From NCBI GenBank assembly GCA_944322375.1, contig CALUOX010000008.1, positions 1 to 44,760 of the forward strand: a DNA stretch of 44,760 nucleotides, in the 5' to 3' direction. Of the stretch, positions 218 through 17,006 are shown piece by piece. The notes under the pieces are model-generated. The model had not been told where the DNA came from. It searched no databases and saw nothing but the letters and a program-made list of their open reading frames with translations. Source of the stretch: an uncultured Alistipes sp. GTDB taxonomy: Bacteria; Bacteroidota; Bacteroidia; Bacteroidales; Rikenellaceae. The stretch's first letter is position 1, and every line of letters starts with the position of its first letter. The translations under genes were made by a program, and so were the position numbers.

Positions 218-1144
218 TCAGTGAATCTCTATCATCCGCAGAATCGAACGCTCCGCAGCACGACGCACCTCCTCGTCGATCGTCACTTCGGGTGCTTCAC
301 GCTCCAGACAATCGACAATCCGTTCGAGTGTCGCCAACTTCATATCCTCACACTCGTTGGGCGTCCGGCCGTCGAGCGTCGGAGCGGCAATGAACACCTT
401 CTCCGGATAGCGGCGTCCCAGCTCACAGAGAATGCCGGCTTCCGTCACCACAATGAACTCCTTCGCGGCATCCCGACCGCAAAAGTCGAGCATGCCGGCC
501 GTAGAACCCGTATAATCCGCCAGGGCAACCACCTCGGCCGGACACTCCGGATGGGTCACCACCCTGGCCGAAGGATGCTCCTCCTTCAAGCGACGGATCC
601 CATCGGCCGAGAAGCGCTCGTGCACGACACATGCACCGTCCCAGATCACCATGTTCTCTCTTCCGCTGAGCCGCTGCACGTAGCGACCCAGATTCCGATC
701 GGGACCGAAGAGAATCGGAACATCGGCCGGAATCGATTCGACGACCTTCAGCGCATTCGACGATGTGCAGCAGATATCCGTCTGCGCCTTCACCTCGACC
801 GACGTATTGACATATGAGATCACCTTGTGATCGGGGTAAAGAGCCCGGAAACGGCGAAAGGCCTCGCTCTGGCAACTTTCGGCCAGCGAACAGCCTGCCT
901 CACGCACCGGAATGAGAACCTTGCGATCCGGGCACAGCACTTTGGCCGTTTCAGCCATGAAGTGCACCCCGGCAAAGAGGATGATGCGTGCATCGGTACG
1001 TTTGGCCTCGATGGACAAAGCCAGCGAATCCCCCAGAAAATCGGCAACGGCCTGCACCTCGGGGCGCATATAATAATGTGCGAGAATTACGGCATTCTTC
1101 TCCCGTTTGAGCTCTTCGATTCGGGTACGGAGTTTATCGACCAT
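218..1144 (-). CDS. nadA: Quinolinate synthase NadA
   Basis: Condenses iminoaspartate (made by NadB) with dihydroxyacetone phosphate to give quinolinate in de novo NAD synthesis, in the cytoplasm. The 308-residue protein has the family's usual length. It shows the N-terminal AHYYMRPEVQ region and the three cysteines expected to hold the 4Fe-4S cluster, in AGCSLAE, WDGACVVHE and NECEDMK. The ATG at 1144 gives a complete N-terminus. No nadB or nadC lies in the window. The next gene upstream on the same strand is mrp, an Fe-S carrier-type ATPase, which fits an enzyme needing a 4Fe-4S cluster, but the 415-bp gap makes co-transcription uncertain. Confidence 0.96.
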   Translation of the reverse strand: MVDKLRTRIEELKREKNAVILAHYYMRPEVQAVADFLGDSLALSIEAKRTDARIILFAGVHFMAETAKVLCPDRKVLIPVREAGCSLAESCQSEAFRRFRALYPDHKVISYVNTSVEVKAQTDICCTSSNALKVVESIPADVPILFGPDRNLGRYVQRLSGRENMVIWDGACVVHERFSADGIRRLKEEHPSARVVTHPECPAEVVALADYTGSTAGMLDFCGRDAAKEFIVVTEAGILCELGRRYPEKVFIAAPTLDGRTPNECEDMKLATLERIVDCLEREAPEVTIDEEVRRAAERSILRMIEIH

Positions 1145-1154
1145 GGCTTCCCTT

Positions 1155-1587
1155 TGTTTTTTATGTTTATTTATTTCAATTCAATTTTAAATTTAAAAAG
1201 AAGAAGATTAATAATACCTGTCGATAAGTTTTACAACTTTTTTCGCGAAAGGGTTATCATCATTTTATGATCCGTCTCCGGAACGGTTCACTGATCGCCT
1301 GTCGCTTTCCGTTGTTGATATTCAGGCGTTCCGATCCATCCTCTTCCTTTTTTCAACAATTGTCGAAAGGTCTTTTCAACACTTCGACAGCACTTTTTTC
1401 TCAACAATCGTCGCTCGCCGGCCGTTCTTTGTTTCGGAGTAACTTTTGAAAAGTTTTTCTTGTTTTTTCCGAGATTCCGTACACGCGGAGGAGAACCGGT
1501 TTCTGCAACTTTTTACATCTCCTTTTTATCACTTTTTTCGTCCGTCCGCCGACAGGTTGTCAACATGATTTCGTCATGTTTTCAACA
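1155..1587. other. AT-rich region with clustered TTnTCAACA motifs, candidate oriC
   Basis: The nadA-mrp gap holds no gene. An almost pure A/T stretch (about 1155-1217) is followed by TTTTCAACA at 1350-1358, 1373-1381 and 1579-1587, TTCTCAACA at 1398-1406, TTGTCAACA at 1557-1565, and an inverted ATATCAACA at 1313-1321. These nonamers match the classical DnaA box TTATCCACA at 6 to 7 of 9 positions. I found no exact TTTTCAACA elsewhere in the window. The layout (unwinding-prone DNA beside clustered boxes) resembles a bacterial origin, and parS-type sites lie 12 kb away. The two rightmost boxes overlap the 3' end of mrp. The origin assignment is inference; another repeated protein-binding site is possible. 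Confidence 0.35.
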
Positions 1588-2618
1588 ATTTTTTCGGCTA
1601 TCGACCGGTAGCGCGATTCCACTTCGGGATCCGTTCCCACGGCCGGACGCCCCTCTTCCGATCCGTCCATAACGGATTGAATGATAGGTATCTCTCCTAA
1701 AAACGGAACATCGTTTTTCTCCGCATACTCACGGGCTCCGCCATGTCCGAAGAGGTAATAACGGTTTTGAGGCAGCTCCCTGGGTGTGAACCACGCCATG
1801 TTCTCGATGATTCCCACCACCGGGATCTCGATCTTTTCGGCGCGGAACATCTCCACACCGCGCCGTACATCCGCCACGGCAACCTGTTGCGGGGTGGAGA
1901 CAATGACGGCACCCGTGATTTTCAGCTCCGAGATGACTGCCAGATGCACGCCGCCCGTTCCGGGAGGAAGATCGATGAGCAGAAAATCGAGACCTCCCCA
2001 CTTCGTCTGATGTATCATTTGCCGCAGGGCGTTCGTGGCCATGGCATCCCGCCAGATCAATGCGTCGGTGGGTTTGATGAAGAAACCGATCGACATCAGT
2101 TTGATTCCCATGGCGTCGGCCGGAAGGATGCACTCTTCGCCGTCGATGCGCTCCGCCTCGGGCAGATAATCCTCCACGCCGAACATTTTCGGCTGCGAGG
2201 GTCCGTAGATATCGGCATCGAGGATTCCGACGCGGTATCCCATGTTGCGCAGTGTGAGGGCCAGATTGGCCGTTACGGTCGATTTGCCCACGCCGCCCTT
2301 TCCCGAGGCAACGGCCAGAATCTTGCCGATGCCGCCCGTCTGGGTATGCCGTTCGGCAGGCTGCTGCACGTGGGGTGCGGCCTCCTTGATGATGACCGTG
2401 ATCGCCTCCTTGTCGAGTGCGAGCTCCGTGGAGAGGATCTCTTCGATCTGGTGTTTGATCTTCAATGCAAAGGGGTCACGGGCCTTGTCGAAGTGAAGGG
2501 TGACGGTGATGCGGTTGTTCTGGAGATCGACGTGTTCAACGATACCGCTTTCGATGATATTGCGTCCGCTTTCGGGATGGACGATCGTCGAAAGCAGCCT
2601 TTTGATTTGTTGCTCCAT
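1560..2618 (-). CDS. mrp: Mrp/NBP35-family Fe-S cluster carrier ATPase
   Basis: Cytoplasmic P-loop ATPase that carries or assembles Fe-S clusters. A DUF59/MIP18-like domain (about residues 3-80) precedes a MinD/Mrp-type ATPase with the deviant Walker A SGKGGVGKST at 105-114, then LDADIYGPSQP and LIDLPPGTGG. The start at 2618 (MEQQIKRLL) was chosen because the longer frame to 2741 adds low-complexity residues not expected in the family and crosses a promoter-like TATCTTTG. The product has 352 residues. Many Mrp proteins have a CxxC after the ENM(A/S) motif; here that segment reads TPRELPQNRYYLFG with no cysteine pair, which I recall as common in Bacteroidetes. The neighbouring nadA encodes a likely client enzyme. 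Confidence 0.93.
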   Translation of the reverse strand: MEQQIKRLLSTIVHPESGRNIIESGIVEHVDLQNNRITVTLHFDKARDPFALKIKHQIEEILSTELALDKEAITVIIKEAAPHVQQPAERHTQTGGIGKILAVASGKGGVGKSTVTANLALTLRNMGYRVGILDADIYGPSQPKMFGVEDYLPEAERIDGEECILPADAMGIKLMSIGFFIKPTDALIWRDAMATNALRQMIHQTKWGGLDFLLIDLPPGTGGVHLAVISELKITGAVIVSTPQQVAVADVRRGVEMFRAEKIEIPVVGIIENMAWFTPRELPQNRYYLFGHGGAREYAEKNDVPFLGEIPIIQSVMDGSEEGRPAVGTDPEVESRYRSIAEKIVENMTKSC

Positions 2619-2643
2619 AAAATCTGTTCGAGTAAGATTCAAC

Positions 2644-2651
2644 AAAGATAA
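2644..2651 (-). promoter_or_regulatory. -7 promoter element for mrp
   Basis: On the minus strand this reads TATCTTTG, matching the Bacteroidetes TAnnTTTG element 25 nt before the mrp ATG. No clear -33 TTG sits at the right distance. Its position supports the start codon at 2618. Confidence 0.4.
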
Positions 2652-2657
2652 CGATAT

Positions 2658-2700
2658 TTTGTCAGATCGTAGTATAGTCGTAAAATTTGTGTATTTTTGT
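2658..2700 (+). promoter_or_regulatory. Bacteroidetes-type promoter region for sppA
   Basis: TTTTG (2658-2662), a 19-nt spacer, then TAAAATTTG (2682-2690, one base longer than TAnnTTTG). A perfect TATTTTTG follows at 2693-2700. Either -7 element could serve sppA, whose ATG is at 2764. The region lies back to back with the mrp promoter. Confidence 0.5.
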
Positions 2701-2763
2701 TTGTCGGAAGGGCGGGGGTGTTTCCGATCCCGGAAAATCAAAATTTGTCAATTGAAATTAAAT

Positions 2764-4539
2764 ATGAATTTTTCAAAGACTTTTCTTGCCGGATTGCTGG
2801 CTTTTGTTGTAGGCAACATACTGATTGGTATGATATGGAGCCTGTTTGTGATGGGAATTGTGGGAGCATTGAGTGTAAGTACGGGCATCTCCGATAATTC
2901 CATTTTGAAGATCGACCTTTCGGAGAACCTGCTTGACGCTCCGTCGAACGATCCCTTTGCAGGGGTGGATTTCAAGACGATGACCGTAACGCCGCAGGTG
3001 ACGTTGTTCAGTGCTCTGCGGGCCATTGATGCCGCCAAGGCCGATCCTCGCATCAAGGGAATCTACATCCGACCCAACGGTGCAGGCATGGCGTCGCTGG
3101 CGATTCTCGAGGAGCTGCGGGCTGCGATCGATGATTTCCGGACGGAGAGTGGAAAATTCGTTCTTGCTTACAACGAAGCCTACAGTCAGAGTGCCTACTA
3201 CCTTGCATCGGTTGCCGACAAGGTTTACATTCAGCCCGAAGGGATGCTCGACTGGCGGGGTATGGCGATGAACGTGATGTTTTTCAAGGGTTTGATGGAC
3301 AAGCTTGATCTCAAGGCGGAGATTTTCCGACCGACGGCCTGCAAGTTCAAGAGTGCGGTGGAGCCCTATTTCCTGACACAGATGTCCGATGCCAATCGGG
3401 AGCAGATGTCGGAACTGGTCAATACGATGTGGTGTGTCGTGGCGGGTGATGTAGCCGACTCGCGCGGACTGACCATCGAGCAGCTTGACGATTATGCCGA
3501 CAATCTGTCGGTTCTCCAGGCCGAGGATGCGGTCAAGTGGGGGATGATCGACGATACGCTCTACGAAGATCAGATGAACGATCTCTTTGCCGAACAGGGT
3601 GTCCCGGCGAACGGCGACGGAAGTTACAACTTTGTGTCGCTGGGTACGTATGCGGCGCAGGTCGGGCCTGACCTTGCACACATGGGTTCGAACCGTGTGG
3701 CGATTCTCTATGCCGACGGCAATATTGTCGATGGCGAGGGTTACGATGCCGTTTACGGCAATACGCTTGGCGAAAAGATCCGCGGTTTGCGTGAGGACGA
3801 CGGTGTGAAGGCCGTGGTCCTGCGGGTCAATTCTCCGGGTGGAAGTGCTTTGGCGTCGGATGTGATCTGGCGGGAGATCGAGCTGCTCAGAGCTGAAAAA
3901 CCCGTAATCGTCTCCATGGGTGCCTATGCTGCCAGCGGCGGATATTATATCTCCTGTCCGGCGGATGCCATTGTCGCCGACAGATTGACCCTGACGGGTT
4001 CGATCGGCGTATTCGGCATGTACGTCGATATCGGCGATGCGGCCAAAAACAAGTTGGGTATTACCGTTGACGGAGTCAAGAGCAATCGTTCGGCCGACAT
4101 GAACGTCTTCCGCGGATTGACCCCCATCGAGCGTGCAGCCATGATAAAGGGGGTAGATCATGTTTACGAAACTTTCACGGAGAATGTCGCTGAGGGACGT
4201 AATCTGCCGCTGGATCGTGTGCTGGAGATTGCCGGCGGCCGCGTATGGAGTGGAATAAAGGCTGCGGACATTGGTTTGGTGGATGTCAACGGCGGTTTGA
4301 AGGCGGCCATTGCCGTCGCGGTTGACAAGGCGGGGCTGGGTGAAGATTACTTCATCGAAGAGGTTCGGGAGCTGCCGCAGGGCCTCGCGGCCATCTTCGC
4401 AGCGCTCCATGCGAAAGTGGAGGCGCATGTCGAGCATGGAGCGCTGTTTGACCTTTACGACGAATACAGCAGTGTCCGCAAGGCGCTTTCACAGCAGGGT
4501 GTGCTTGCCTATTGTCCCTACATTCTTTCGTTCGAGTAG
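2764..4539 (+). CDS. sppA: Signal peptide peptidase SppA, 67-kDa type
   Basis: Membrane-anchored serine protease that degrades cleaved signal peptides. The 591-residue product is the long, two-domain (tandem S49) form. An N-terminal membrane segment covers about residues 8-38. The catalytic pair is visible: Lys196 in KFKSAVEP of the first repeat and Ser391 in YAASGGYY of the second, with NSPGGSALASD nearby. The start at 2764 puts the membrane anchor at the N-terminus; an in-frame extension to 2500 runs through mrp and its promoter and was rejected. The gene is divergent from mrp and ends at a strong hairpin. Confidence 0.95.
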   Translation: MNFSKTFLAGLLAFVVGNILIGMIWSLFVMGIVGALSVSTGISDNSILKIDLSENLLDAPSNDPFAGVDFKTMTVTPQVTLFSALRAIDAAKADPRIKGIYIRPNGAGMASLAILEELRAAIDDFRTESGKFVLAYNEAYSQSAYYLASVADKVYIQPEGMLDWRGMAMNVMFFKGLMDKLDLKAEIFRPTACKFKSAVEPYFLTQMSDANREQMSELVNTMWCVVAGDVADSRGLTIEQLDDYADNLSVLQAEDAVKWGMIDDTLYEDQMNDLFAEQGVPANGDGSYNFVSLGTYAAQVGPDLAHMGSNRVAILYADGNIVDGEGYDAVYGNTLGEKIRGLREDDGVKAVVLRVNSPGGSALASDVIWREIELLRAEKPVIVSMGAYAASGGYYISCPADAIVADRLTLTGSIGVFGMYVDIGDAAKNKLGITVDGVKSNRSADMNVFRGLTPIERAAMIKGVDHVYETFTENVAEGRNLPLDRVLEIAGGRVWSGIKAADIGLVDVNGGLKAAIAVAVDKAGLGEDYFIEEVRELPQGLAAIFAALHAKVEAHVEHGALFDLYDEYSSVRKALSQQGVLAYCPYILSFE

Positions 4540-4602
4540 TTTCGACATTCGGTGCAGAGCGATCCTTCTCCTTGACGGTCAGGATCCTTGATGAAACAAT
4601 CG

Positions 4603-4641
4603 GAAGAGGAGGCTTTCGTGAAAGCCTCCTCTTCGTTTGTT
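4603..4641 (+). terminator. Intrinsic terminator after sppA
   Basis: A perfect 14-bp stem (4603-4616 with 4621-4634, loop CGTG) is followed by GTTTGTTT, 63 nt past the sppA stop. The rest of the 342-bp gap up to 4881 shows no gene or repeat. Confidence 0.8.
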
Positions 4642-4881
4642 TACCGTTTGTCCGGTCCTGGGCCGGGAACGGTTCGGAGAATCACACATGCTGGAAAAGG
4701 AAGTAAAAAGTCTTTTCGAATTGTTTTCGGTTGCCGTTTCGTTCGTATGTGTATCAGGTATTGGGCGTGTGAGTCGCGGTATCCCGGAGCAGAGCGGAAG
4801 CACGGTGTTTTTGCAAAGAACCGCATGGAGCCGTATAAGCCCTGTGAAAAGGTTCGAAACGGTCCGCTTTCCTCTGTTCTT

Positions 4882-6252
4882 CTATTCGTCAAGATTCTGA
4901 AAATCGATGCTCCCCTTGTATTGTCCCGAGACGGTATGGGGGGAATGGACATTGTCATCGACGAAGAGGTAGTCGATCGTGTAGCTCTTTCCGTCTCTTG
5001 AAACGACGGCTTCTCCCTTGACCAGCGGAGCTGCGGCCATCAGCTCCGTCTCTCCATTGCGGGTTGTCAGGAGACGGTACCAGCTGCCGCTGAAGATTCC
5101 TGTATCCGTATCGTCTGTCGAGATCTCTCCCGCCAGGATGCCCCCGACCTGCAGATCCTCGGCCGTGAGTGCGGCCGACGGTTTCCCGATCACGCTGTAT
5201 CTGCCTTCGATTGCGCCGTTTTTCGCCGCTTCCGGTTCGACGAGGAGGGTCCACATCATGTTCTCTAACGGCAGAACCGCAAGGTCTCCGTAAAATTGCA
5301 AAACGAGTTTTCGGGCCGTGATCTGCGGATCGTCGCAGGGGTAAAACATGCCGGTGGCGCGCAGGACGTTGGGCCGGACATTTTCGGTGAGGGTGGAGTG
5401 CGGTGCCGCCGTATCGTCAACGAGGATGATTGACCCTTCATAGCGGGCCGTGCAGGTCGTTCCATCGCCGGTTTTCAGTGTCAGGTCAATCCGGTAGAGA
5501 TCGTTTGAACGGACGATTGCGACGTCTCCTCCGACCGTATAGAGTGGTTCAAGCGCATCTCCGTCCGCATTTTGGCGAATGATGCATGTCGTTTCCGAGG
5601 AGTTGAAACTCCCCTTGCACGGGATGTCGGTGAGATTCGCGGCATAGGATCCCGTGAGATCCGTCGCGGCAAAGGTCGTTGCCGGAATGTTCAGGTCAAG
5701 CACGATCTCCACAATGGGGTAATCGGAGGATGATGGATCGGTCCCGCGCAGCTCGAGTCGGACGTTGTCAAGCTCTCCGTTTGTCTGGAGCAGATCGCCC
5801 CGATAGTGTGCAACCGCCTCTTTCAGCAGGATTGTTTCGGACGATGGTGCGGGTGCGGCGGCCTGTTCTATCGTTACGGAGATGGTTGAGGCATGCGGAG
5901 ATGTTACGGTGACGCACGCATATCGGGGTTCGGCTGAATCGTTCGCCCTTGCCGCGACGGAGAGCTCGGTGGAACCATATCCTTGATTTTCACTGACTTC
6001 CAACCATTCGGCATTGGCGTCGGCGCTCCATTCGTCTGCCTCTCCGGACGTGATGAAAAGAGCAGACTTTCCGCCGCCGGCGTCGAACCGTAACGACAGC
6101 GGTTCGACCTTCAGTACGGGTTGTGGTGTCGTGGAGGTACCGTCTTCGGGATCGAAGAGCGGCATGTCACGCTGCTGGCAGCCTCCGGCAAGCAGCACTC
6201 CCGAAATAAAAAGCATTGTCAGACAATGCCTTGACGATCCTTTCCCGCCCAT
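4882..6252 (-). CDS. Secreted lipoprotein with a BACON-like domain
   Basis: Specific function unknown. The 456-residue protein starts with a signal peptide ending in the lipobox LAGGC, so it is a lipoprotein. The residues after the cysteine (QQRDMP) lack the acidic run linked to surface export in Bacteroidetes, so it may face the periplasm. Residues about 48-130 resemble a BACON domain (LKVEPLSLRFDAGGG, then a WSADANAEWLEVS core), a beta-sandwich common in Bacteroidetes secreted proteins. The remaining 320 residues look like beta-rich repeated modules (two segments contain V/I-RSNDLYRIDL- and YTIDYLFVDD-like strands), and I do not recognise a catalytic domain. An internal ATG at residue 13 could also serve as the start. 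It is monocistronic by spacing. Confidence 0.8.
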   Translation of the reverse strand: MGGKGSSRHCLTMLFISGVLLAGGCQQRDMPLFDPEDGTSTTPQPVLKVEPLSLRFDAGGGKSALFITSGEADEWSADANAEWLEVSENQGYGSTELSVAARANDSAEPRYACVTVTSPHASTISVTIEQAAAPAPSSETILLKEAVAHYRGDLLQTNGELDNVRLELRGTDPSSSDYPIVEIVLDLNIPATTFAATDLTGSYAANLTDIPCKGSFNSSETTCIIRQNADGDALEPLYTVGGDVAIVRSNDLYRIDLTLKTGDGTTCTARYEGSIILVDDTAAPHSTLTENVRPNVLRATGMFYPCDDPQITARKLVLQFYGDLAVLPLENMMWTLLVEPEAAKNGAIEGRYSVIGKPSAALTAEDLQVGGILAGEISTDDTDTGIFSGSWYRLLTTRNGETELMAAAPLVKGEAVVSRDGKSYTIDYLFVDDNVHSPHTVSGQYKGSIDFQNLDE

Positions 6253-6268
6253 ACCGACAAGTTTTTTT

Positions 6269-6276
6269 CAAAAATA
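6269..6276 (-). promoter_or_regulatory. -7-like element for the BACON lipoprotein gene
   Basis: The minus strand reads TATTTTTG 16 nt before the start codon, matching TAnnTTTG. No -33 element is evident, and the short distance to the ATG implies a very short leader. Confidence 0.3.
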
Positions 6277-6370
6277 CGAAAAAAAGTCCGTAATATGGTC
6301 GTTGCGGATGGGTTATCGACCCTGTTTCGGCGTCGGACGATATACTTTTTCATGTCGGGGGGCATGAAAA

Positions 6371-6395
6371 ACCCCGTTCTTTTGAAAAACGGGGT
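6371..6395 (-). terminator. Intrinsic terminator after the PepSY-like gene
   Basis: An 8-bp GC-rich stem (ACCCCGTT 6371-6378, AACGGGGT 6388-6395) is followed on the minus strand by TTTTTC. It lies 50 nt beyond the stop of the gene at 6445-7005. Confidence 0.8.
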
Positions 6396-6444
6396 CTTGA
6401 CGTGTTGTCGGCGGTCGGGAGAGCGGGTCTCCCTTCGGAAGGCT

Positions 6445-7005
6445 TTATCTGCTCATTCCGTGATGGTCCCTGTGATGCGGATGTTTCTCATCCTTCATCT
6501 CCTTTTTCATTGTTTTGTCCTCCTGTTTTTTCTGCATGCGGGTGCGGAGGTTGTCCGTTTCGGAGGGGACGGTCAACTCCGTGTGGTCGGAGAGAGAGAC
6601 CGAAATGCCGTTGTTTTCGAGTCCGATGGCCGTGATGGTCCGACCCGGGTATTTGCTCTTTACATAATCCTTTACCTCCTGCGGGACGAGTTGCGCCGGC
6701 ACGCCTTTCGGACACTCCATTTCGGTCCACTCTCCGCTGCGCGAAAAGAAGATCTCGTCACCATTGGTGAACCGGACCCTGTAAGTGAAGAGTTTTGCCG
6801 TAGGATCCGTCCGGACGCGCATTACCCGCTCCTGAGCATAGAAATCGTGGATGAAGCTGCGGGCCGCATCCGGAAGTGCCTCGAAATGAATCGTCCGGCT
6901 TTTTGTCTCCGCAGCCGTCCGTTCGTCCCTGGCGGTCGGAGAGATCGTTGTTGCCGTTGCCGTCATGCCCGACAGCAGGGCGATGAAGAGAATCCAGTGT
7001 TTCAT
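6445..7005 (-). CDS. Secreted PepSY-like (DUF2874-type) protein with a His-rich tail
   Basis: Exact role unknown. The start at 7005 (MKHWILFIALLSGM) gives a typical signal peptide and a 186-residue product; the open frame upstream to 7413 is arginine-rich antisense-like sequence and was dropped. The mature part has two half-repeats of the PepSY-like kind: LPDAARSFIHDFYAQ with a following GDEIFFSRSGEWTEMEC strand pair, and VPQEVKDYVKSKYPG with a matching ITAIGLENNGISVSL. Proteins of this type in Bacteroidetes are periplasmic. The tail HPHHRDHHG is rich in histidine and could bind metal, which is inference. It ends at its own terminator, and the M13 peptidase gene upstream also has its own terminator, so it is probably transcribed alone. 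Confidence 0.78.
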   Translation of the reverse strand: MKHWILFIALLSGMTATATTISPTARDERTAAETKSRTIHFEALPDAARSFIHDFYAQERVMRVRTDPTAKLFTYRVRFTNGDEIFFSRSGEWTEMECPKGVPAQLVPQEVKDYVKSKYPGRTITAIGLENNGISVSLSDHTELTVPSETDNLRTRMQKKQEDKTMKKEMKDEKHPHHRDHHGMSR

Positions 7006-7253
7006 GACCGTATGAATTTTTGTCTGTCCGGATCGTTCAAATACCGTACCGCAGCGTGCCGCGTGTGGATTTTGTTGCTTGCCGGTTTGCCGGCAGCGGA
7101 TCCCTCGTCCACGGTTCCTCGGTCCGACCGGACCGTTCCGTCGTTTGCATCTCCGGACAGCAGCGTCCGCAGCGGTTTTCCGTCGTTCTGTTGTGGCAAA
7201 TCCCAGATCCGGAATCTTTCCGTTGGCCGGAGCGGTCCCGATTTCGGAAAACA

Positions 7254-7284
7254 AAAAGGGACCGGCAAACGGCCGGCCCCTTTT
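7254..7284 (-). terminator. Intrinsic terminator after the M13 peptidase gene
   Basis: Arms 7254-7266 and 7272-7284 form a 13-bp stem with one mismatch and a 5-nt loop, flanked by A/T runs that give TTTTTG on the minus strand. It starts 21 nt past the stop codon. Confidence 0.8.
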
Positions 7285-7304
7285 CACTTGTTTGATATGA
7301 CGGT

Positions 7305-9347
7305 TTACCAGATGATGACACGCTCCTCTTCGGGCATGAACATCGCTCCATCGGTGATGTTGAATGCGTCGTAGAAGCTCTGGAGGTTGCGCAGGGTTGC
7401 GTTGACACGCCATTTTCCCAACGAGTGTACGTCGATCTTCGTCAGACGGGCTATCTCCTCGTCACGGATGTTCTGCGCCCACAGCTGTGCATAGGCCAGA
7501 TAGAAGCGCTGGTCGGGTGTAAATCCATCGATGGGCGCCGGAGTCTCCTTCCCTTTCAACGAGTTGTGATATGCGGTGTATGCCACGCGCAGACCGCCCT
7601 GATCGGCAATATTCTCTCCCAGCGACAGCGCGCCGTTGGCGAAGACGGCGGGTTGGTCACCCTTGGCGGGCAGCACCTCGATGGCATCGAACTGTTTGAC
7701 CAGAATGTCCGTTTTGGCCTTGAAGGCTGCCGCATCGTCGTCGGTCCACCAGTTGTTCATGTTGCCGTCCTTGTCGAAATTGCGGCCCTGATCGTCGAAT
7801 CCGTGCGTCATTTCGTGGCCGATCACGACGCCGATGGCTCCGTAGTTGACGGCATCGTCGGCATCCGGATTGTAGAACGGCGGCTGCAGAATGGCGGCCG
7901 GGAAGCAGATTTCGTTGGTCGTGGGGTTGTAGTAGGCATTGACCGTCTGCGGCGACATCAGCCATTCATCCTTATCGACCGGTTTGCCGTATTTGCTCAG
8001 ATTGTCCTTCGAGCTCCAGAGGCTGGCGGCCTTGATGTTGTGCCAGTAGTCCATCGCGGGATCGATCGTCAGCGACGAGTAGTCCTTCCACTTGTCGGGA
8101 TAGCCGATCTTCACGTGGAATGCAGCGAGTTTCTCCTGCGCCTTGGCCTTCGTGGCATCCGACATCCAGTCGAGGGCTGCGATGTGTTCGCCGAGGGCCG
8201 TTTGCAGATTCTTCACGAGAGCCAGCATGCGCTCCTTGTCCTCCTTGGGGAAGTACTTGGCGACGTACATCTCGCCGACAGCTTCGCCCAATACGGCATT
8301 CGGAACCGACATGGCCCGTTTCCAGCGCGGTTTCTGCTCCTGTTTTCCGGCCATCTGACGACCGTAGAAGTCGAACGACGCGGCATAAAAGTCGTCGCTC
8401 AGGTAGGATGCCGCATTGGTCAGGTATTGTCCTGCCAGGTAGTAACGCAGCGTTTCGATCGGTGTCGAGTCGATGAGTTTGCTCATCCCCTCGAAGAAAC
8501 TCGGCTGTCCGACGATGGCGCGGTCGATGTTCTTCGCCCCCGTTTTGTCCAGCTCGCTGAAGAGAAGCGTCCAGTCGATGGCTCCGTAGTTCTTCTTGAG
8601 CTCCTCGACGGTCATCGGATTGTATCCGCGGGCCACGTCGCGCAGCTCGACATTCGACCAGGAGATGCGTGCCAGCTCCGTTTCGAAGGCAACGACATCC
8701 GCTGCGGCCTTGGCTGCGGCAGCCTCTTCGACGCCGGCAAGCGTGTAGAGTTTGGCAAGCAGGGCCTCATACCCCTTTTTGAGCCCGGCATTCGACTCTT
8801 CGAGGTAGTAGTCGCGGTCGCCCATGCCCAGCCCCGCCTGCTGGAGATAGAAGGTGTTGGTGTTGCTGTCCATCAGATCGGCCATGACACCGAAGGTGAA
8901 GAGCGGGTTGCCCGTATCGAGAATCATCTCCGTGAGTTTTTTCGTCAGGGCACTTCCCTTTTCGACCTGCATGATTGCGGCGATATCGGCCATGACGGGT
9001 GCAGCACCCTCCTTGTTGAGGCGCACCGAGTCAAGCCCCATCTTGTAGAGATCGGAAATCTTCTGATCCACCGAACCGGCTTCGGCCTGCATGGCGGTCA
9101 TCTCCTGGAAGAGCTCGTTGATGCGGATCTCGTTGTTTTCACGCAGGACGTCGAACGATCCGTAGCGTGAGAATTCGGGTTTCAGCGGGTTTTTGGCCTG
9201 CCAGCCGCCCGTGGCATATTGATAAAAGTCTTCGTTGGGTGCGACGGTCGGGTCGAAATTCGTCGTATCGATTGCCGCTACCTTTGCCGGTTTGTTGTTG
9301 CAACTCATCATACAGGCTACCGTTGCAAAAAGAATGATTCGTTTCAT
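7305..9347 (-). CDS. M13-family zinc metallopeptidase (PepO/neprilysin type), lipoprotein
   Basis: Zinc endopeptidase of the neprilysin/PepO family, expected to cleave oligopeptides outside the cytoplasm. The 680-residue protein has the family's usual length. His511, Glu512 and His515 in the HEMTH motif, with GFDDQGRNFDKDG after it, form the active site; ENIADQGG downstream supplies the third zinc ligand. The N-terminal signal sequence ends in MMSC, a plausible lipobox, so it is probably a lipoprotein at Cys16. NAYYNPTTNEICFPAAIL and the C-terminal VNATLRNLQSFYDAF region are typical of the family. It is flanked by a terminator on its 3' side and by pgk upstream at 147 bp. Confidence 0.95.
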   Translation of the reverse strand: MKRIILFATVACMMSCNNKPAKVAAIDTTNFDPTVAPNEDFYQYATGGWQAKNPLKPEFSRYGSFDVLRENNEIRINELFQEMTAMQAEAGSVDQKISDLYKMGLDSVRLNKEGAAPVMADIAAIMQVEKGSALTKKLTEMILDTGNPLFTFGVMADLMDSNTNTFYLQQAGLGMGDRDYYLEESNAGLKKGYEALLAKLYTLAGVEEAAAAKAAADVVAFETELARISWSNVELRDVARGYNPMTVEELKKNYGAIDWTLLFSELDKTGAKNIDRAIVGQPSFFEGMSKLIDSTPIETLRYYLAGQYLTNAASYLSDDFYAASFDFYGRQMAGKQEQKPRWKRAMSVPNAVLGEAVGEMYVAKYFPKEDKERMLALVKNLQTALGEHIAALDWMSDATKAKAQEKLAAFHVKIGYPDKWKDYSSLTIDPAMDYWHNIKAASLWSSKDNLSKYGKPVDKDEWLMSPQTVNAYYNPTTNEICFPAAILQPPFYNPDADDAVNYGAIGVVIGHEMTHGFDDQGRNFDKDGNMNNWWTDDDAAAFKAKTDILVKQFDAIEVLPAKGDQPAVFANGALSLGENIADQGGLRVAYTAYHNSLKGKETPAPIDGFTPDQRFYLAYAQLWAQNIRDEEIARLTKIDVHSLGKWRVNATLRNLQSFYDAFNITDGAMFMPEEERVIIW

Positions 9348-9431
9348 TGTTAATGGTTGTTGTCGCGGCGCGCGGTTACGGACTCCTTCTCTCTCTGCCG
9401 TATCTCCGTGCGCCCTTTTGGGTTACAGGCA

Positions 9432-9466
9432 CGAAGGAGTTGCCTCACATGGGGGCAACTCCTTCG
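9432..9466 (-). terminator. Hairpin after pgk
   Basis: A 13-bp stem (9432-9444 with 9454-9466, loop 9 nt) lies 29 nt past the pgk stop. It lacks a clear T run on the minus strand, so it may act as a 3' stabiliser as well as, or instead of, a terminator. Confidence 0.6.
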
Positions 9467-9494
9467 CAAGATGGTTTTGTTCCGCAGACAGCGA

Positions 9495-10756
9495 TTATTT
9501 GCGGATGGCCGCTACGCCCGGAAGTTCCTTGCCCTCCATGTATTCGAGCAGTGCACCACCGCCGGTCGATACATAGCTGACCTTGTCGGCCAGACCGAAC
9601 TTGTTGATGCAGGCTACCGAGTCGCCGCCGCCGATGAGCGAGTAGGCGCCTTTTGCGGTAGCTTCGGCGATTGCTTCGGCAACGGCCTTCGAACCTGTTG
9701 CGAACTTGTCGATCTCGAATACACCCACGGGACCGTTCCACAGAATGGTCTTGCAGCCGAGGATGTGTTCACGGAAGATCTTTTTGCCTTCATCGGCGAT
9801 ATCGACACCCTCCCAGTTGTCGGGAATGTCGTTTGCCGGGGCGACGGCCGTATTGGCGTCGGCCGAGAAGGCGTCGGCGATCAGCGCGTCAGGCGACATG
9901 ACCAGCTTGATACCCTTTTCCTGCGCCTTTTGAGAATGTCGAGCGCTACGGGGAACATGTCGGGTTCGCAGATCGAGTTGCCGACCTTTCCGCCCTGTGC
10001 TGCGGCGAACGTGTAGGTCATCCCGCCGCCGATGATGATCGAATCGACCTTCTCCATGAGTTTCTCGATGATCGAGATCTTGGTCGAGACCTTCGAACCG
10101 CCGATGATGGCGCAGAAGGGGCGCTGCGGGTTCTGCATCACGCCGTCGATCGCCTTGAGCTCGTTCTCCATGACGTAGCCGAACATCTTGTCGTGGGGAA
10201 AATATTCGGCGATCAGGGCCGTCGATGCGTGTGCGCGGTGTGCCGTGCCGAAAGCGTCGTTGATGTAGCAGTCGGCGTACGAAGCGAGTTTCTTGACGAA
10301 CTCCTTCTGCGGACCCTCCTTGAGAGCCTTCTTTGCCGCCTTCTTCTCCTCTTCGGTAGCGTCCTCCGCCAGCCCGCGCGGTTTGCCCTCTTCCTCGGCG
10401 TAGAAACGGAGGTTTTCGAGCAGCATCACTTCGCCGGGCTTGAGGTTCTTGGCCATTTCGGCAGCCTTTTCGCCCATGCAGTCGCCGGCGAACATCACCT
10501 TGTGTCCCAGGCGTGCTTCGATGGCGCCGACGATGTGTTCGAGCGAGAATTTCATATCGTTGTTCTTCTTGGGGCGTCCCAGATGCGACATGAGAATTAC
10601 CGCTCCCCCCTTTTCGAGTACTTTCTTGATAGTGGGGATCGCTGCACGGATACGGGTATCGTCCGTGACTTCGAACTTGTCGTTCAGAGGCACATTGAAA
10701 TCCACGCGGATAATGGCGCGTTTCCCTTTGAAATCATAAGAATCGATTGCGAACAT
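9495..10756 (-). CDS. pgk: Phosphoglycerate kinase, split by a one-base frameshift
   Basis: Glycolytic enzyme that makes ATP from 1,3-bisphosphoglycerate. Translation from 10756 gives a normal N-terminal domain ([40 protein letters not shown]) up to VALDILK, then runs out of frame to a stop near 9881. The frame starting at about 9899 continues the family sequence ([37 protein letters not shown]). Adding one A to the four-A run (plus-strand T run at 9928-9931) restores an unbroken protein of about 419 residues, including the expected KKAQEKGIK. Because pgk is normally single-copy and essential, a homopolymer sequencing error is most likely; a true mutation is possible. The site does not look like a classical -1 slippery heptamer. 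Confidence 0.93.
9928..9931 (-). other. Frameshift site in pgk
   Basis: The minus strand reads CTC AAA AGG CGC AGG where family conservation calls for CTC AAA AAG GCG CAG. One A is missing from the run. The sequence on both sides is otherwise intact pgk. Confidence 0.9.
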
Positions 10757-11129: not shown

Positions 11130-13172
11130 ATGGCAAAAGAGTTTAAGCGCTATCTGGTTACATCGGCTCTTCCCTATGCAAACGGTCCGGTGCACATCGG
11201 CCATCTGGCGGGCGTGTATGTTCCGTCGGACATCTATGTCCGTTACCTGCGGCTGCGTGGCCGGGACGTCATCTCGATTTGCGGAAGCGACGAACATGGC
11301 GTCGCCATTACCATCAAGGCCCGCAAGGAGGGTGTGACACCTCAGCAGATTATCGATCGTTACCATAACCTGATCAAGACATCGTTCGAGCGTTTCGGCA
11401 TCTCTTTCGATATCTATTCCCGGACATCGTCGCCCGTGCATGCGCAGACGGCGTCGGATTTCTTCCGCAAGCTCTATTCCGAAGGAAAATTCATCGAAAA
11501 GACCTCGCTGCAGTATTACGACGAGGAGGCGCAGCAGTTTCTCGCCGATCGTTATATCGTCGGCACCTGCCCCCATTGCGGGAACGAGCGCGCCTATGGC
11601 GATCAGTGCGAGCAGTGTGGATCCACGCTGTCGCCCGATGAACTGATCAATCCGCACAGCGCCCTGTCGGGGTCGCCGCTTGTCAAGCGTGAAACGAAAC
11701 ACTGGTACCTGCCTCTTGATCAGTACGAGGGATTCCTGCGTCATTGGATCCTCGACGGTCACAAGGAGTGGCGCCCCAACGTTTACGGACAGTGCAAAAG
11801 CTGGCTCGATCTGGGCCTGCAGCCGCGTGCCGTGAGCCGCGACCTGGATTGGGGAATCCCCGTGCCGGTCGAGGGCGCCGAGGGCAAGGTCCTCTACGTC
11901 TGGTTCGACGCCCCGATAGGATACATCTCGGCTACCAAGGAGCTTACTCCCGACTGGGAGCGCTACTGGAAGGATCCCGAGACCAAGATGGTCCATTTTA
12001 TCGGCAAGGACAACATCGTGTTCCATTGCATCGTCTTCCCGTCGATGCTCAAGGCGCACGGTGATTATATTCTCCCGGAGAATGTTCCGGCAAACGAGTT
12101 TCTGAACCTCGAGGGCGAGAAGATCTCCACCTCGCGCAACTGGGCTGTCTGGCTGCATGAGTACCTCGACGAGTTCCCCGGCAAGGAGGATGTCCTGCGC
12201 TACGTTCTCTGCGCAAATGCCCCCGAGTCGAAGGACAATGACTTCACGTGGAAGGATTTTCAGGCGCGTAACAACAATGAGTTGGTCGCCGTTCTGGGAA
12301 ACTTCGTCAACCGCGCTCTTGTCCTGACGCAGAAGTATTACGAGGGTGTGGTGCCTCCCTGCGGCGCGCTGACCGATTACGATCGTGAGACGATTGCCGA
12401 GCTGCAGCGTGTGAAGTCGGTTTTGGAACAGGATCTGGAGAACTTCCGTTTCCGCGAGGCGCTGAAGGACGCGATGAACGTCGCCCGTATCGGCAACAAG
12501 TACCTTGCCGACAGCGAACCCTGGAAGGTGATCAAGACGGATCCCGAACGTGTGAAGACGATTTTGAATATCGCCCTGCAGATTACGGCCAATCTGTCGA
12601 TTGTCATTGAGCCGTTCATGCCCTTCTCCGCGGAGAAACTGCGCCGGATGTTGCAGGTGGATTCTTTTGACTGGGAGCGTATCGGCTCCATGGATCTGCT
12701 CGCGGCTGGCCATACCATCGGGAAGCCCGAACTTTTGTTTGAGAAGATCGAAGACGACGTCATTCAGAAACAGCTCGACAAACTTGCCGCCACAAAGGCC
12801 GCGAATAAGGCTGCTGAGGCTTCGCAAAATATTGAAAATCAGAAGGATGAGATCTCTTTCGACGATTTCCAGAAGATGGACATCCGTGTCTCTACGATCC
12901 TTGAGGCTGAGAAGGTCGCCAAGACGAAGAAACTGCTCAAGTTAACGGTTGATACGGGTATCGACAAACGTGTTATCGTTTCGGGAATTGCCGAGTATTT
13001 TACTCCCGAGGAGCTTGTGGGACAGCAGGTGCTTGTCCTTGTGAACCTTGCGCCGCGCACGTTGAAGGGAATCGAGTCGCGGGGCATGATTCTGATGGGC
13101 GAGAATGCGGATGGCCGTCTTGTCCTCTTGAAGCCCGCTGCTGCGGTTTTTAACGGTTCAATTGTCGGATAA
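11130..13172 (+). CDS. metG: Methionine--tRNA ligase with C-terminal tRNA-binding domain
   Basis: Charges tRNA-Met in the cytoplasm. The 680-residue protein is the long form. The class I HIGH motif is at residues 22-25 (PVHIGHLAG), and the KMSKS-type motif is KISTS at 331-335. A CxxC pair of zinc knuckles (CPHCG and CEQCG) sits in the connective domain. Residues from about 574 ([17 protein letters not shown]) form the OB-fold tRNA-binding (EMAP-II/Trbp111-like) domain that also supports dimer formation. The linker before it is alanine- and lysine-rich. ilvE follows after 17 bp, so the two genes are probably co-transcribed. Confidence 0.97.
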
Positions 13173-13189: not shown

Positions 13190-14203
13190 ATGGAAAACAT
13201 CGATTGGGCTTCGCTGCCTTTCAATTATCACAAAACGGATTATAACGTCCGGATCTCTTACAAGGATGGTAAATGGGGCAAACCTGAGCTGACGCAGGAT
13301 GAGTATATCTCGATCCACATGTCGGCACCTTGCCTGCACTACGGTGTAGAGTCATTCGAGGGGTTAAAGGCTTTTCGCGGCAAGGACGGTAAGATTCGTC
13401 TTTTCCGTCCCGATGAAAACGGAAAACGTTTTGCCGCCTCGGCGCGCAAGTTGTGCATGGCCGAGCTTCCGGTCGATACCTTTGTCGAGATGTGCAAGAT
13501 GGTCGTGAAGGCAAACGAGCGTTTTGTTCCTCCTTATGGTACGGGAGCGACGCTTTATTTGCGGCCTTATGAGATCGGCATGGGGGCATTCCTGGGTGTA
13601 CATCCTGCCAAGGAGTTTCTGGTGGGCATCTTCGTTTCTCCTGTCGGAGCCTATTTCAAGGAGGGGATCAAGCCGATCCGCGTGATCATCAATCCGAATT
13701 TCGACCGCGCTGCTCCACGTGGAACAGGCGACGTAAAGTGTGGCGGCAACTATGCTGCGAGCCTTGAGGCTGGTGAGGTCGCCAATGCGGAGGGATTTGC
13801 CAACTCGATGTTTGTTGATGCCGTACATCGGAAATATATCGAGGAGTGCGGTGCCGCGAACTTCTTTGGAATTAAGGACAATACCTACGTGACGCCCAAG
13901 TCTACCTCTATCCTCCCCTCCATTACCAACAAGAGTCTCCGTCAGCTGGCAAAGGATATGGGAATGAAAGTTGAAGAGCGTCCCGTTGCTGTTGATGAGC
14001 TCTCTACTTTCGAAGAGTGTGCTGCTTGCGGTACGGCTGCCGTTATTTCGCCTATCTCATATATCTACGACAAGGAGACGGGTCGCGAGTGGCATTTCGG
14101 CGATGAACCAGGCAAGCGCTGTCTCGAGATGTACAATAAATTGCAGGATATTCAATACGGCCGTTGCGCAGATCCGTATGGATGGACGGTTGTTGTCGAG
14201 TAA
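13190..14203 (+). CDS. ilvE: Branched-chain amino acid aminotransferase
   Basis: PLP-dependent class IV transaminase, last step of valine, leucine and isoleucine synthesis and first step of their breakdown. The 337-residue protein resembles the BCAT2-like form of Bacteroidetes and eukaryotes. Lys183 in DVKCGGNYAAS is the expected PLP lysine. YGVESFEGLKAFRG, RPYEIGMGAFLG and AACGTAAVISPI are conserved family segments. It directly follows metG. A near-parS sequence overlaps codons for APRGT just before the PLP lysine, using CCA, GGA and ACA codons that are uncommon in neighbouring genes. The gene ends at a strong terminator. Confidence 0.95.
   Translation: MENIDWASLPFNYHKTDYNVRISYKDGKWGKPELTQDEYISIHMSAPCLHYGVESFEGLKAFRGKDGKIRLFRPDENGKRFAASARKLCMAELPVDTFVEMCKMVVKANERFVPPYGTGATLYLRPYEIGMGAFLGVHPAKEFLVGIFVSPVGAYFKEGIKPIRVIINPNFDRAAPRGTGDVKCGGNYAASLEAGEVANAEGFANSMFVDAVHRKYIEECGAANFFGIKDNTYVTPKSTSILPSITNKSLRQLAKDMGMKVEERPVAVDELSTFEECAACGTAAVISPISYIYDKETGREWHFGDEPGKRCLEMYNKLQDIQYGRCADPYGWTVVVE
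13711..13726. other. parS-like site inside ilvE
   Basis: TGCTCCACGTGGAACA matches the palindrome TGTTCCACGTGGAACA at 15 of 16 positions. It lies 577 bp from a perfect copy. The protein here (PRGTG) is conserved in the family, so coding constraint explains part of the match, but the codon choices also favour the site. Confidence 0.6.
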
Positions 14204-14256
14204 GCGTCTTTTTTTTGTGTGCGGCGCTGTGACGCAGTACGCAATAAAGGTAATTT

Positions 14257-14283
14257 AAGAGGCGGAGCATTGCTCCGCCTCTT
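14257..14283 (+). terminator. Intrinsic terminator after ilvE
   Basis: Perfect inverted repeat AAGAGGCGGAGCA / TGCTCCGCCTCTT with a 1-nt centre (effectively a shorter stem with a small loop), followed by CTTTTG. It stands 53 nt past the ilvE stop. Confidence 0.8.
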
Positions 14284-14287
14284 CTTT

Positions 14288-14303
14288 TGTTCCACGTGGA
14301 ACA
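14288..14303. other. parS: parS centromere-like site
   Basis: TGTTCCACGTGGAACA is a perfect 16-bp palindrome (18 bp with its flanking T and A). It equals the parS sequence I recall from Pseudomonas and fits the general bacterial consensus TGTTnCACGTGnAACA bound by ParB. It is intergenic, between the ilvE terminator and a 9-bp repeat, upstream of the 3' end of mnmG, a gene often found near origins. parS sites in other bacteria cluster close to oriC and seed ParB spreading for chromosome segregation. No parA or parB is in the window. Confidence 0.85.
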
Positions 14304-14691: not shown

Positions 14692-16575
14692 CTATCTGCC
14701 GAATTTGACAAGCAGCACGTTGATGTCTGCCGGTGAAACTCCCGGAATGCGCGACGCCTGTCCAATGGTACGTGGCTGAATGCGCAGCAGCTTTTGTCGG
14801 GCCTCAATTGTCAGCGATTGCATCGACATGAAGTCAAAACCGTCGGGTATGGGAATCTCCTCCAGCCGGTGCAGCTTCTCCGCAATGTTTTTTTCGCGCA
14901 GAATGTATCCGTTGTATTTAATCTGGATCTCGGCCTCTTCGACAGCTTCGCGACTGATCGCCCCCTCTTCAAGAAAGTGCTTCAGTTTGGGAAGGGCGCC
15001 GGCCATCCCCTCAAAGGTGATGTCGTTGCGCAAAATCAGATCGTAGAGCTTCCTCCCCTGCTTCATTGGCTCTGAATTGACACTTTTTAGATAGTCGTCA
15101 ATTTCGCCTGCACGGACACTCGTGCGGTGGGCGAACGATACAAGCGATTCTACGCTCGATTTTTTTTGTTCGAATTCAGCGAACTCTTTTGCCGTGATGA
15201 GCCCGATTTTCCGACCGATCGGTGTCAGCCGAAGGTCGGCGTTGTCCTGTCGCAGCAGGATGCGGTACTCGGCGCGCGAGGTGAACATCCGGTACGGCTC
15301 ATCGACCCCTTTGGTGACGAGGTCATCGATCAGCACGCCGATGTATGCCTGGTCGCGGTGGAGAACCAGCGGCTCCTGTCCGGTCCGTTTGAGGTGTGCG
15401 TTGATTCCGGCCATCAGCCCTTGTGCGGCGGCCTCTTCGTAGCCGGTCGTGCCGTTTACCTGTCCGGCGAAGTAGAGCCCTTCGACAAGTTTCGTCTCAA
15501 GGGTGTGGTGCAGCTGTGTAGGAGGGAAATAGTCGTATTCGATGGCGTAGCCCGGGCGGTAGATATGTACGTTCTCCAGTCCGCGGATCTTGTGAAGCGC
15601 CTCGTACTGTATCTCCCAGGGCAGTGACGAGGAGAATCCGTTGAGGTAGTATTCGTTCGTCTCCTCCCCTTCGGGTTCGAGAAACAGCTGGTGCTGCTCC
15701 TTTCCGGCGAAGGTGCGCAGTTTGTCCTCAATCGACGGGCAGTAGCGGGGACCGATTCCGTGTATCGTCCCGTTGAACAGCGGCGAACGGTCGAACCCGC
15801 TGCGCAGGATTGCATGTACCTCCGGGTTCGTGTAGACGAGAAAACACGGAAGTTGATGCCTAACAGGTTGAGGATCAGATGAGAACGAGAATTTGGACGG
15901 ATTTACATCTCCATATTGGATCTCGAGGGCGTCGAAGTTGATTGTTCGTGCGTCGAGGCGTGCGGGGGTTCCCGTCTTCATTCGTCCCACGTCGAACCCC
16001 ATGCTTGCGAGCGATTCCGTAACGCCTGTTGCAGCCGCGTCGCCGGCTCTTCCTCCGGAGGCGTGTGCCGCTCCGCAGTGCATCAGTCCATTGAGGAAGG
16101 TCCCGGCCGTAAGGATGACGCAGTCGGCCGAGAAGGTCACACCCATCCGGGTCCTTATGCCCGATATGCGGGTATGGCCGTTTTTGCTGTCAAAGAGCAG
16201 TTCTACGGCCGCGTCCTGCCAGATGTAGAGATTCTCCGTATTCTCCAGCTCGCGCCGCCATTCGGCGGAAAAACGGCCTTTGTCGCACTGCGCGCGGGGA
16301 CTCCACATGGCGGCCCCCTTCGAACGGTTGAGCATGCGGAACTGGAGGGTCGTGCGGTCCGTTATGCGGGCCATGCGACCGCCCAATGCGTCGATCTCCC
16401 GGACAATCTGGCCCTTTGCCACGCCGCCGACGGCCGGATTGCACGACATGCCGGCCATCTTGGTCATGTCCATTGTCAGCAGCAGGGTCCGTGAACCGAG
16501 CCGTGCGGCGGCAGATGCCGCTTCACAGCCGGCATGCCCGCCGCCGATGACGATAATATCGTAATGAAGCGTCAT
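14692..16575 (-). CDS. mnmG: tRNA uridine-5-carboxymethylaminomethyl modification enzyme MnmG
   Basis: FAD protein (GidA) that with MnmE installs the (carboxymethyl)aminomethyl group on U34 of several tRNAs. The product is about 627 residues, as in E. coli. The dinucleotide-binding motif GGGHAGCEAA is at the N-terminus, followed by SCNPAVGGVAKGQIVREIDALGG and MKTGTPARLD, and the C-terminal helical domain is intact. The start at 16575 (MTLHYD) was chosen over 16590 because it overlaps the ybeY stop in an ATGA arrangement and is preceded by GGAGGAGAG, an unusually good ribosome site for this group. It forms a coupled operon with ybeY. Its 3' end faces ilvE across the parS-bearing gap. Confidence 0.95.
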   Translation of the reverse strand: MTLHYDIIVIGGGHAGCEAASAAARLGSRTLLLTMDMTKMAGMSCNPAVGGVAKGQIVREIDALGGRMARITDRTTLQFRMLNRSKGAAMWSPRAQCDKGRFSAEWRRELENTENLYIWQDAAVELLFDSKNGHTRISGIRTRMGVTFSADCVILTAGTFLNGLMHCGAAHASGGRAGDAAATGVTESLASMGFDVGRMKTGTPARLDARTINFDALEIQYGDVNPSKFSFSSDPQPVRHQLPCFLVYTNPEVHAILRSGFDRSPLFNGTIHGIGPRYCPSIEDKLRTFAGKEQHQLFLEPEGEETNEYYLNGFSSSLPWEIQYEALHKIRGLENVHIYRPGYAIEYDYFPPTQLHHTLETKLVEGLYFAGQVNGTTGYEEAAAQGLMAGINAHLKRTGQEPLVLHRDQAYIGVLIDDLVTKGVDEPYRMFTSRAEYRILLRQDNADLRLTPIGRKIGLITAKEFAEFEQKKSSVESLVSFAHRTSVRAGEIDDYLKSVNSEPMKQGRKLYDLILRNDITFEGMAGALPKLKHFLEEGAISREAVEEAEIQIKYNGYILREKNIAEKLHRLEEIPIPDGFDFMSMQSLTIEARQKLLRIQPRTIGQASRIPGVSPADINVLLVKFGR

Positions 16576-17006
16576 CTCTCCTCCTCCCAATAACGGAGGT
16601 ATTTGTCCTCCTTGCGGTGCATGGCTGCGTTTGTGCGGGGCGTTTTGTCCTTCTGTCCGCAGAGGTGCAGCAAGCCGTGAACAACGACGCGGCGCATTTC
16701 ACAAAGCCGTGTCGCTCCGTAGATCCGGGCGTTGTCCGCAACCGTCTCCACATCGATAAAGATATCTCCCGCCACCGTGCGGGCCTTTTTGCGGTCGCTG
16801 TAATCGAATGTGATTACATCGGTGTAATAGTCATGTCCGAGAAACTGTCTGTTCATCTCCAACAGTCGTTCCGCCGAACAGAAGATATAGTTTACATCGG
16901 TGAGCACGTATCCCTCCTCTTCGGCGACCCTGCGCAGCCAGGCCGAAGTCCGTCTCTTTTCCGGCAGACGGTAGGAGCACGCCTCGTTATAGTATCTTAC
17001 AGCCAT
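16572..17006 (-). CDS. ybeY: Endoribonuclease YbeY (rRNA maturation factor)
   Basis: Zinc RNase involved in 16S rRNA 3'-end maturation and ribosome quality control. The 144-residue protein carries NYIFCSAERLLEMNRQFLGHDYYTD and the metal motif at about 109-121 (HGLLHLCGQKDK) with His110 and His114. The third histidine of the usual HGxLHLxGYDH motif is replaced by a KD pair, a variant I believe is common in Bacteroidetes. The last four bases overlap the start of mnmG, so translation is probably coupled. Confidence 0.93.
   Translation of the reverse strand: MAVRYYNEACSYRLPEKRRTSAWLRRVAEEEGYVLTDVNYIFCSAERLLEMNRQFLGHDYYTDVITFDYSDRKKARTVAGDIFIDVETVADNARIYGATRLCEMRRVVVHGLLHLCGQKDKTPRTNAAMHRKEDKYLRYWEEER

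Follow-up and report, generated by a model that had tools for sequence, protein, structure and literature searches.

Two parS-type sites beside mnmG in an uncultured Alistipes, one of them within the coding sequence of ilvE

The stretch analyzed here (44,760 nucleotides of contig CALUOX010000008.1 from an uncultured Alistipes sp., hereafter the window) harbors metG, ilvE, and mnmG in a conserved block, together with two short sites of the parS type, one inside ilvE and one in the intergenic region that follows it. Close to its left end, the gap between nadA and an mrp-like gene is predicted to contain the replication origin. The features on which the analysis draws are as follows.

218..1144, minus strand: nadA (PF02445), a flank of the predicted oriC
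1145..1559, no strand: predicted oriC, the nadA–mrp gap with DnaA-box-like motifs, placed by homology to the skew-minimum region of relatives
1560..2603, minus strand: mrp/apbC-type P-loop NTPase (PF10609), a flank of the predicted oriC in all five relatives
11130..13172, plus strand: metG, left member of the conserved metG–ilvE–parS–mnmG block
13190..14203, plus strand: ilvE, branched-chain amino acid aminotransferase (NCBIfam NF009897 and TIGR01123), which holds site 1
13711..13726, no strand: site 1, parS-type TGCTCCACGTGGAACA, in frame within ilvE codons 174–179
14288..14303, no strand: site 2, parS-type perfect palindrome TGTTCCACGTGGAACA, in the ilvE–mnmG gap right after a terminator-like hairpin
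14692..16590, minus strand: mnmG (gidA; TIGR00136), the usual parS neighbor in the order loci inspected

The genes ilvE and mnmG are convergent, and the 488-bp gap between them holds site 2, at a start-to-start spacing of 577 bp from site 1; both positions and both sequences are those claimed in an earlier note on this DNA. Measured against the parS consensus TGTTNCACGTGNAACA, taken as stated in that note, site 2 has no mismatch and site 1 has one. This single departure from the palindrome, a C for a T, keeps an Ala codon (GCT) at residue 175, where the palindrome would demand Val (GTT). The codons CCA, GGA, and ACA of site 1 had been described as uncommon in nearby genes, which, in a count over ten genes of the window, held for CCA (2.2% of Pro codons) and ACA (13.9% of Thr codons) and failed for GGA (32% of Gly codons).

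No third match to the consensus was found in the window at up to three mismatches, in agreement with what had been claimed. At this tolerance, 40 out of 100 shuffles of the 44.8-kb stretch reach two matches, and the window alone is thus not unusual; the evidence for the sites is the genome-wide count at zero to one mismatch. Searching the whole host genome (2,518,635 bases in 139 contigs, 98.27% complete) with at most one mismatch returned exactly two matches, both located here within 593 bp, compared with about 0.3–0.4 expected from base composition and none for the reversed-pattern control in the same genome. Scattered copies, which the earlier note had named as the first ground for doubt, were therefore not observed.

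A perfect inverted repeat that lies between convergent genes and adjoins a T-rich stretch, as site 2 does, could also be read as a transcription terminator or attenuator between ilvE and mnmG. However, a separate GC-rich hairpin followed by a T tract is already present directly before site 2, the same 16 bases but one recur inside the ilvE coding sequence, and parS-type sites in relatives are also located at the 5′ end of mnmG (L256, L257, and L262) and in the metG–ilvE gap, which makes this reading very improbable.

The conservation of the sites, the lack of which had been put forward as a reason to abandon the parS proposal, was extensive. A consensus match with at most one mismatch was present in all 71 same-genus genomes sampled (each at least 90% complete), with hand-summed totals of 165 matches versus 26 for the reversed control. 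The metG–ilvE–mnmG block carries a site in 70 of these 71 genomes and accounts for 155 of the 165 matches. When the contexts of 157 matches were inspected, at one locus per genome, 42 were found inside ilvE, 105 in the ilvE–mnmG gap, 8 in the metG–ilvE gap, and 2 elsewhere, namely one just past ilvE (G060) and one in G009. The remaining eight are on other contigs of G016, G026, G028, G031, and G040; none of them has the CC..GG form, and they look like chance occurrences. The G009 genome (1.3 Mb) has its sole parS-type site (L011) inside a frame that, from its sequence, we take to be murC-like, and no ilvE match was found in this genome.

Beyond the genus, a match with at most one mismatch was detected in all 41 genomes from 15 other genera of the same family; 22 of the 24 loci inspected among them adjoin mnmG and none adjoins ilvE. 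The form found within ilvE, TGCTCCACGTGGAACA, occurs in 43 of the 71 genus genomes (42 times in ilvE and, in G009, elsewhere) and in none of the 41 genomes of the other genera. Within the family, the ilvE copy is, as judged from these genomes, confined to this genus. At the level of the order, the exact consensus was matched in 134 of 199 genomes, against 1 of 199 for the reversed control. Thirty loci were inspected, from 30 of the 134 matching genomes, and mnmG was within the locus at 26 of them, across 16 of the 17 families represented, with no ilvE or metG match at any of the 30. The placement of predicted parS beside mnmG is thus widespread in the order, and since the order and family loci are mostly at mnmG and none at ilvE, the mnmG neighborhood is old. 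Among the titles and abstract openings covered by our literature search, no description of parS beside mnmG in Bacteroidales was found. The same distribution bears on the proposal that the sites are read by some other palindrome-binding regulator, controlling ilvE or mnmG. The loci inspected outside the genus have the motif at mnmG and none has it at ilvE, and the sites are mostly at gene 3′ ends or inside genes, away from promoters, so we give such a regulator next to no credence.

Variant forms of the site were also observed within the genus. The asymmetric form TGTTCCACGGGGAACA accounts for all 14 sites (at most one mismatch) of G023, G035, G037, G045, G052, and G070 (row labels L025, L068, L070, L078, L085, and L312) and occurs in at least three separate lineages of the MnmG tree, from which G037 is absent. 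Forms of the CACGAG type were found in G022 and G040, and one in G004. Leaving G004 aside, the eight variant-site genomes all have Ala at the 177-equivalent position of ParB; counted without correction for kinship, variant sites are present in 8 of the 20 genomes with Ala at this position vs none of the 31 with Ser. An altered ParB HTH was considered as the source of the CACGGG variant and dropped, the HTH regions of G045 and of the canonical-site genome G041 being near-identical.

Turning to the protein that would read these sites, the host genome encodes one ParB_N protein, immediately downstream of parA, on a contig (G000:C29) different from that of the sites. This protein passes the ParB-family domain model TIGR00180; its top-scoring NCBIfam model is Noc, under the cut-off of that model, and its nearest PDB chain is a Noc. 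A GERRxRA motif is visible in the sequence, which we take to be of the CTP-clamp type. ParB_N matches were obtained in 69 of the 71 genus genomes, and the search found none in G064 and G067, although both carry sites. Additional ParB_N proteins from longer frames (664–686 aa) were detected in G004, G005, G007, G049, G052, G057, and G065, and these perhaps belong to mobile elements.

Residues of the genus ParBs were mapped by alignment to Caulobacter ParB (6t1f). The equivalents of R173 and G201 were kept in all 51 ParBs aligned from the 71 genomes, and PMC7383237 links these residues to the recognition of parS as opposed to NBS. The Noc-binding site was accordingly discarded as a candidate class, the Q173 and R201 equivalents being replaced by R and G in 51 of 51 ParBs. 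The same source places R204 of Caulobacter ParB among the parS contacts; its equivalent is Lys in 51 of 51 genus ParBs, and the S172 equivalent is Lys or Arg. The identification of the sites as parS, as advanced in the earlier note, is upheld by their genome-wide rarity, clustering, and conservation and by a cognate parAB with parS-type residues. On this comparative evidence, both sites belong to a known class and are almost certainly chromosomal parS.

It had further been proposed that the pair forms a loading zone for SMC, which our searches do not support. ScpB gave no matches in the host genome (98.27% complete), and the nine SMC_N matches resolve into eight proteins, namely RecN, RecF, an ABC-F protein, UvrA, two exporter-type ABC proteins, and a pair of short ABC frames (233 and 271 aa), with no SMC among them; the search spanned SMC_N and ScpB. 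In PMC10197239, Bacteroides caecimuris and Muribaculum intestinale are likewise reported with no known condensin.

The proximity of the region to the replication origin, also claimed previously, is supported, with the predicted origin 12–13 kb away from the parS pair and not at it. In contiguous stretches around parS from five relatives, the minimum of the cumulative GC skew was located approximately 7.6, 7.6, 8.3, 7.5, and 19.2 kb from parS (in G008, G006, G002, G057, and G055, respectively), always on the metG side; in all five it falls within mrp or slightly beyond the 3′ end of that gene. A minimum far from the sites had been named as evidence against the proposal, and a nearby one, at 7.5–19 kb, was found in each of these relatives. 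The positions of other potential markers were measured in two of them: in G008 (3.79-Mb contig), parS is at 1,193,000, dnaA at 2,748,495, and parB at 354,863, and in G057 (single contig of 3.38 Mb) the respective positions are 1,161,377, 3,167,896, and 1,925,396. The coarse skew of G008 goes positive at approximately 1.15 to 1.32 Mb, with weak exceptions elsewhere, and that of G057 is noisy across the 20 stretches sampled, so that no conclusion was drawn from it alone. An oriC distant from dnaA in Bacteroidetes has already been published (PMC4755523 and PMC10197239).

Four relatives have an AT-rich gap behind mrp, in which the 200 bp of lowest GC content reach 21–27% GC; in the corresponding gap of the window (1145–1559) the AT bias is weaker, with 34% GC in the equivalent segment, and the 200 bp of lowest GC content in the window as a whole are at its left end. 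All four relaxed TTWTCNACA motifs of the window are found at 1219–1587, the last one just inside mrp, and G055 has seven relaxed DnaA-box motifs in 600 bp at its skew minimum, where nadA was not found. Because this motif was picked after viewing the gap sequences of the relatives, its clustering is only suggestive, and because larger TTWTCNACA clusters additionally occur elsewhere in the stretches of G008 and G002, the origin is placed mainly by the skew of the relatives and by homology. The strict DnaA box TTWTNCACA was set aside as an origin marker; it is too rare, with one occurrence in the window, outside the predicted gap. A GC-skew sign change at parS was expected in the window and none was found, the skew being mostly positive, which fits a predicted origin near the left end. 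On these grounds, oriC is predicted at 1145–1559, that is, 12.2–13.1 kb from the parS pair.

Several rearrangements were noted around this region. Within positions 218–10756 of the window, the nadA–mrp–sppA block is inverted relative to four relatives. An M13-type peptidase gene and pgk are located between this block and metG in the window, and in those four relatives the two genes are approximately 7–59 kb beyond mnmG, on the opposite side. In the G006 stretch, beside the predicted origin, two copies of sppA and of most of mrp occur approximately 4.8 kb apart, at approximately 86–94 kb from 298201. The window itself begins with a (TTTATTTATTTT)n simple repeat (positions 1–80), which is probably the cause of the contig break there.

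A notable feature of the site inside ilvE, present in 42 of the 71 same-genus genomes, is the fixation of its codons. The ilvE codons were read in 59 of the 71 genomes, and the exact 16 bases were found in 37, of which 36 are full-length. These 36 genes encode proteins with pairwise identities of 57–96% (mean 70%), and all 16 bases of the site, wobble positions included, are identical in every one of them, compared with just 31% for the best-conserved 16-mer not overlapping the site. The codons of residues 175–179 (GCT CCA CGT GGA ACA) are 100% fixed, whereas at other invariant residues whose codons are at least fourfold degenerate the commonest codon averages 52%; by the codon usage of the same genes, the joint frequency of the five codons is 0.0003.

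It could be argued that parS function is limited to the gap site and that the match in ilvE arose incidentally from constraint on codons and protein in the conserved R-A-A-P-x-G-T-G segment of the aminotransferase. The A-P-x-G-T-G portion is indeed conserved in most relatives, the protein sequence thus accounting for some of the match, and 28 genomes possess ilvE without the internal site. Such constraint does not readily account for five consecutive degenerate codons fixed to this extent, nor for the behavior of the genes in which the site is missing: five of seven genus genes that keep the Arg at residue 177 but lack the exact site have acquired synonymous changes in at least two codons, and four Arg-bearing genes of other family genera are 4–6 bases off. 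Moreover, the wobble T before residue 175 survives the replacement of Ala by Ser, with TCT in two genomes and AGT in one (L091, L093, and L094), both Ser codons retaining the T that the site requires. We therefore consider this reading very unlikely. The ilvE copy is dispensable in the 28 genomes, since ilvE is found there without it, and most likely it adds a second ParB loading site that is selected in some lineages and dispensable in others. Sites of the parS type within coding sequences are already known from other bacteria. The titles and abstract openings searched contained no description of a conserved ilvE-internal parS, and within that literature the depth of dual coding seen in ilvE seems undescribed so far.

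The CGT codon of the site requires Arg at residue 177, and Arg was present in 37 of 37 site-bearing ilvE genes. Besides one Alistipes record, none of 28 relatives from named records has it, the residue being L, H, K, N, Q, or G instead. The possibility that Arg177 is exclusive to the genus was entertained and fell on comparison with 29 genomes of other family genera (30 rows, two of which are one genome), 4 of which have Arg without the site, which is 4–6 bases off in these genes; Arg177 may for this reason precede the site. Of the 22 same-genus ilvE genes without the exact site, 7 retain Arg; 5 of these have drifted synonymously at two or more codons, 1 has also lost Pro, and L006 is one base off. 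The site would thereby hold Arg177 in place.

Mapping site presence onto the MnmG tree (66 genus rows) needs 10 changes, at least 3 of which are forced by starred branches; the tree has many weak inner branches, and the change count cannot separate gain from loss. The site is seen on both sides of deep forks, which suggests an early gain followed by repeated loss. A fuller history, in which a parS arose in ilvE early in the genus, froze six consecutive wobble positions, holds Arg177, and was then repeatedly lost, with several losers keeping Arg with drifted codons, is advanced tentatively, at a little below even odds.

Taken as a whole, the observations are best explained by a chromosomal parS centromere serving ParB/ParA segregation, with a genus-specific second site in ilvE under selection at the DNA level, to which we assign a probability of roughly 0.94. 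The sequence, rarity, clustering, conservation, gene context, cognate parAB with its parS-type specificity residues, and short distance from the skew minimum seen in relatives were computed, and from the ParABS family we infer binding, CTP gating, spreading, and segregation. The host ParB would bind the palindromes, close as a CTP clamp, and spread over the origin-proximal region, and ParA would move the ParB complex, by which the newly copied origin would be segregated. Site 2 would occupy the position customary in the order, immediately beyond the mnmG 3′ end, and site 1 a second loading site that would have arisen in ilvE within the genus and been kept by selection on DNA, which is the proposed reason for its fixed wobble bases.

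Clusters of parS at ori have been described in gut bacteria, two Bacteroidetes among them, and the ParABS parS employed was TGTTTCACGTGAAACA, as given in the available part of PMC10197239. As in chromosomal ParABS systems, the host sites consist of a 16-bp palindrome in one to few copies, clustered near the predicted origin and accompanied by a single parAB operon with parS-type ParB residues. They differ in their location beside mnmG, from which parB and dnaA are hundreds of kilobases distant (as measured in two relatives), in the presence of a coding copy with frozen wobble bases, and in the K found at the 204-equivalent of ParB. The species Bacteroides caecimuris and Muribaculum intestinale belong to the same phylum and resemble the host in having parS at the origin, in yielding no known condensin, and in an ori that is not always at dnaA, whereas the ilvE-internal copy seen here occurs in one genus of its family; in the part of PMC10197239 consulted, their parS are compared without gene neighborhood. 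The Noc-binding site (PMC7383237, likewise consulted in part) is a related palindrome read by a ParB paralog, and a Noc chain is the best PDB match of the host ParB, but at the two base-reading positions (173 and 201) the latter carries R and G in place of Q and R, and the host sites are few and clustered, not scattered.

These results give positions for the putative centromere and the predicted origin in a gut genus where, to judge from two relatives, neither dnaA nor parB marks the origin well. With the origin anchored, growth-rate estimates from metagenomes that are based on the origin would be better anchored as well. Additionally, the ilvE copy constitutes a natural experiment in dual coding, in which related lineages have kept or lost a putative ParB loading site, and comparing these lineages would allow one to gauge the value of an additional parS to a genome in which searches found no SMC–ScpB.
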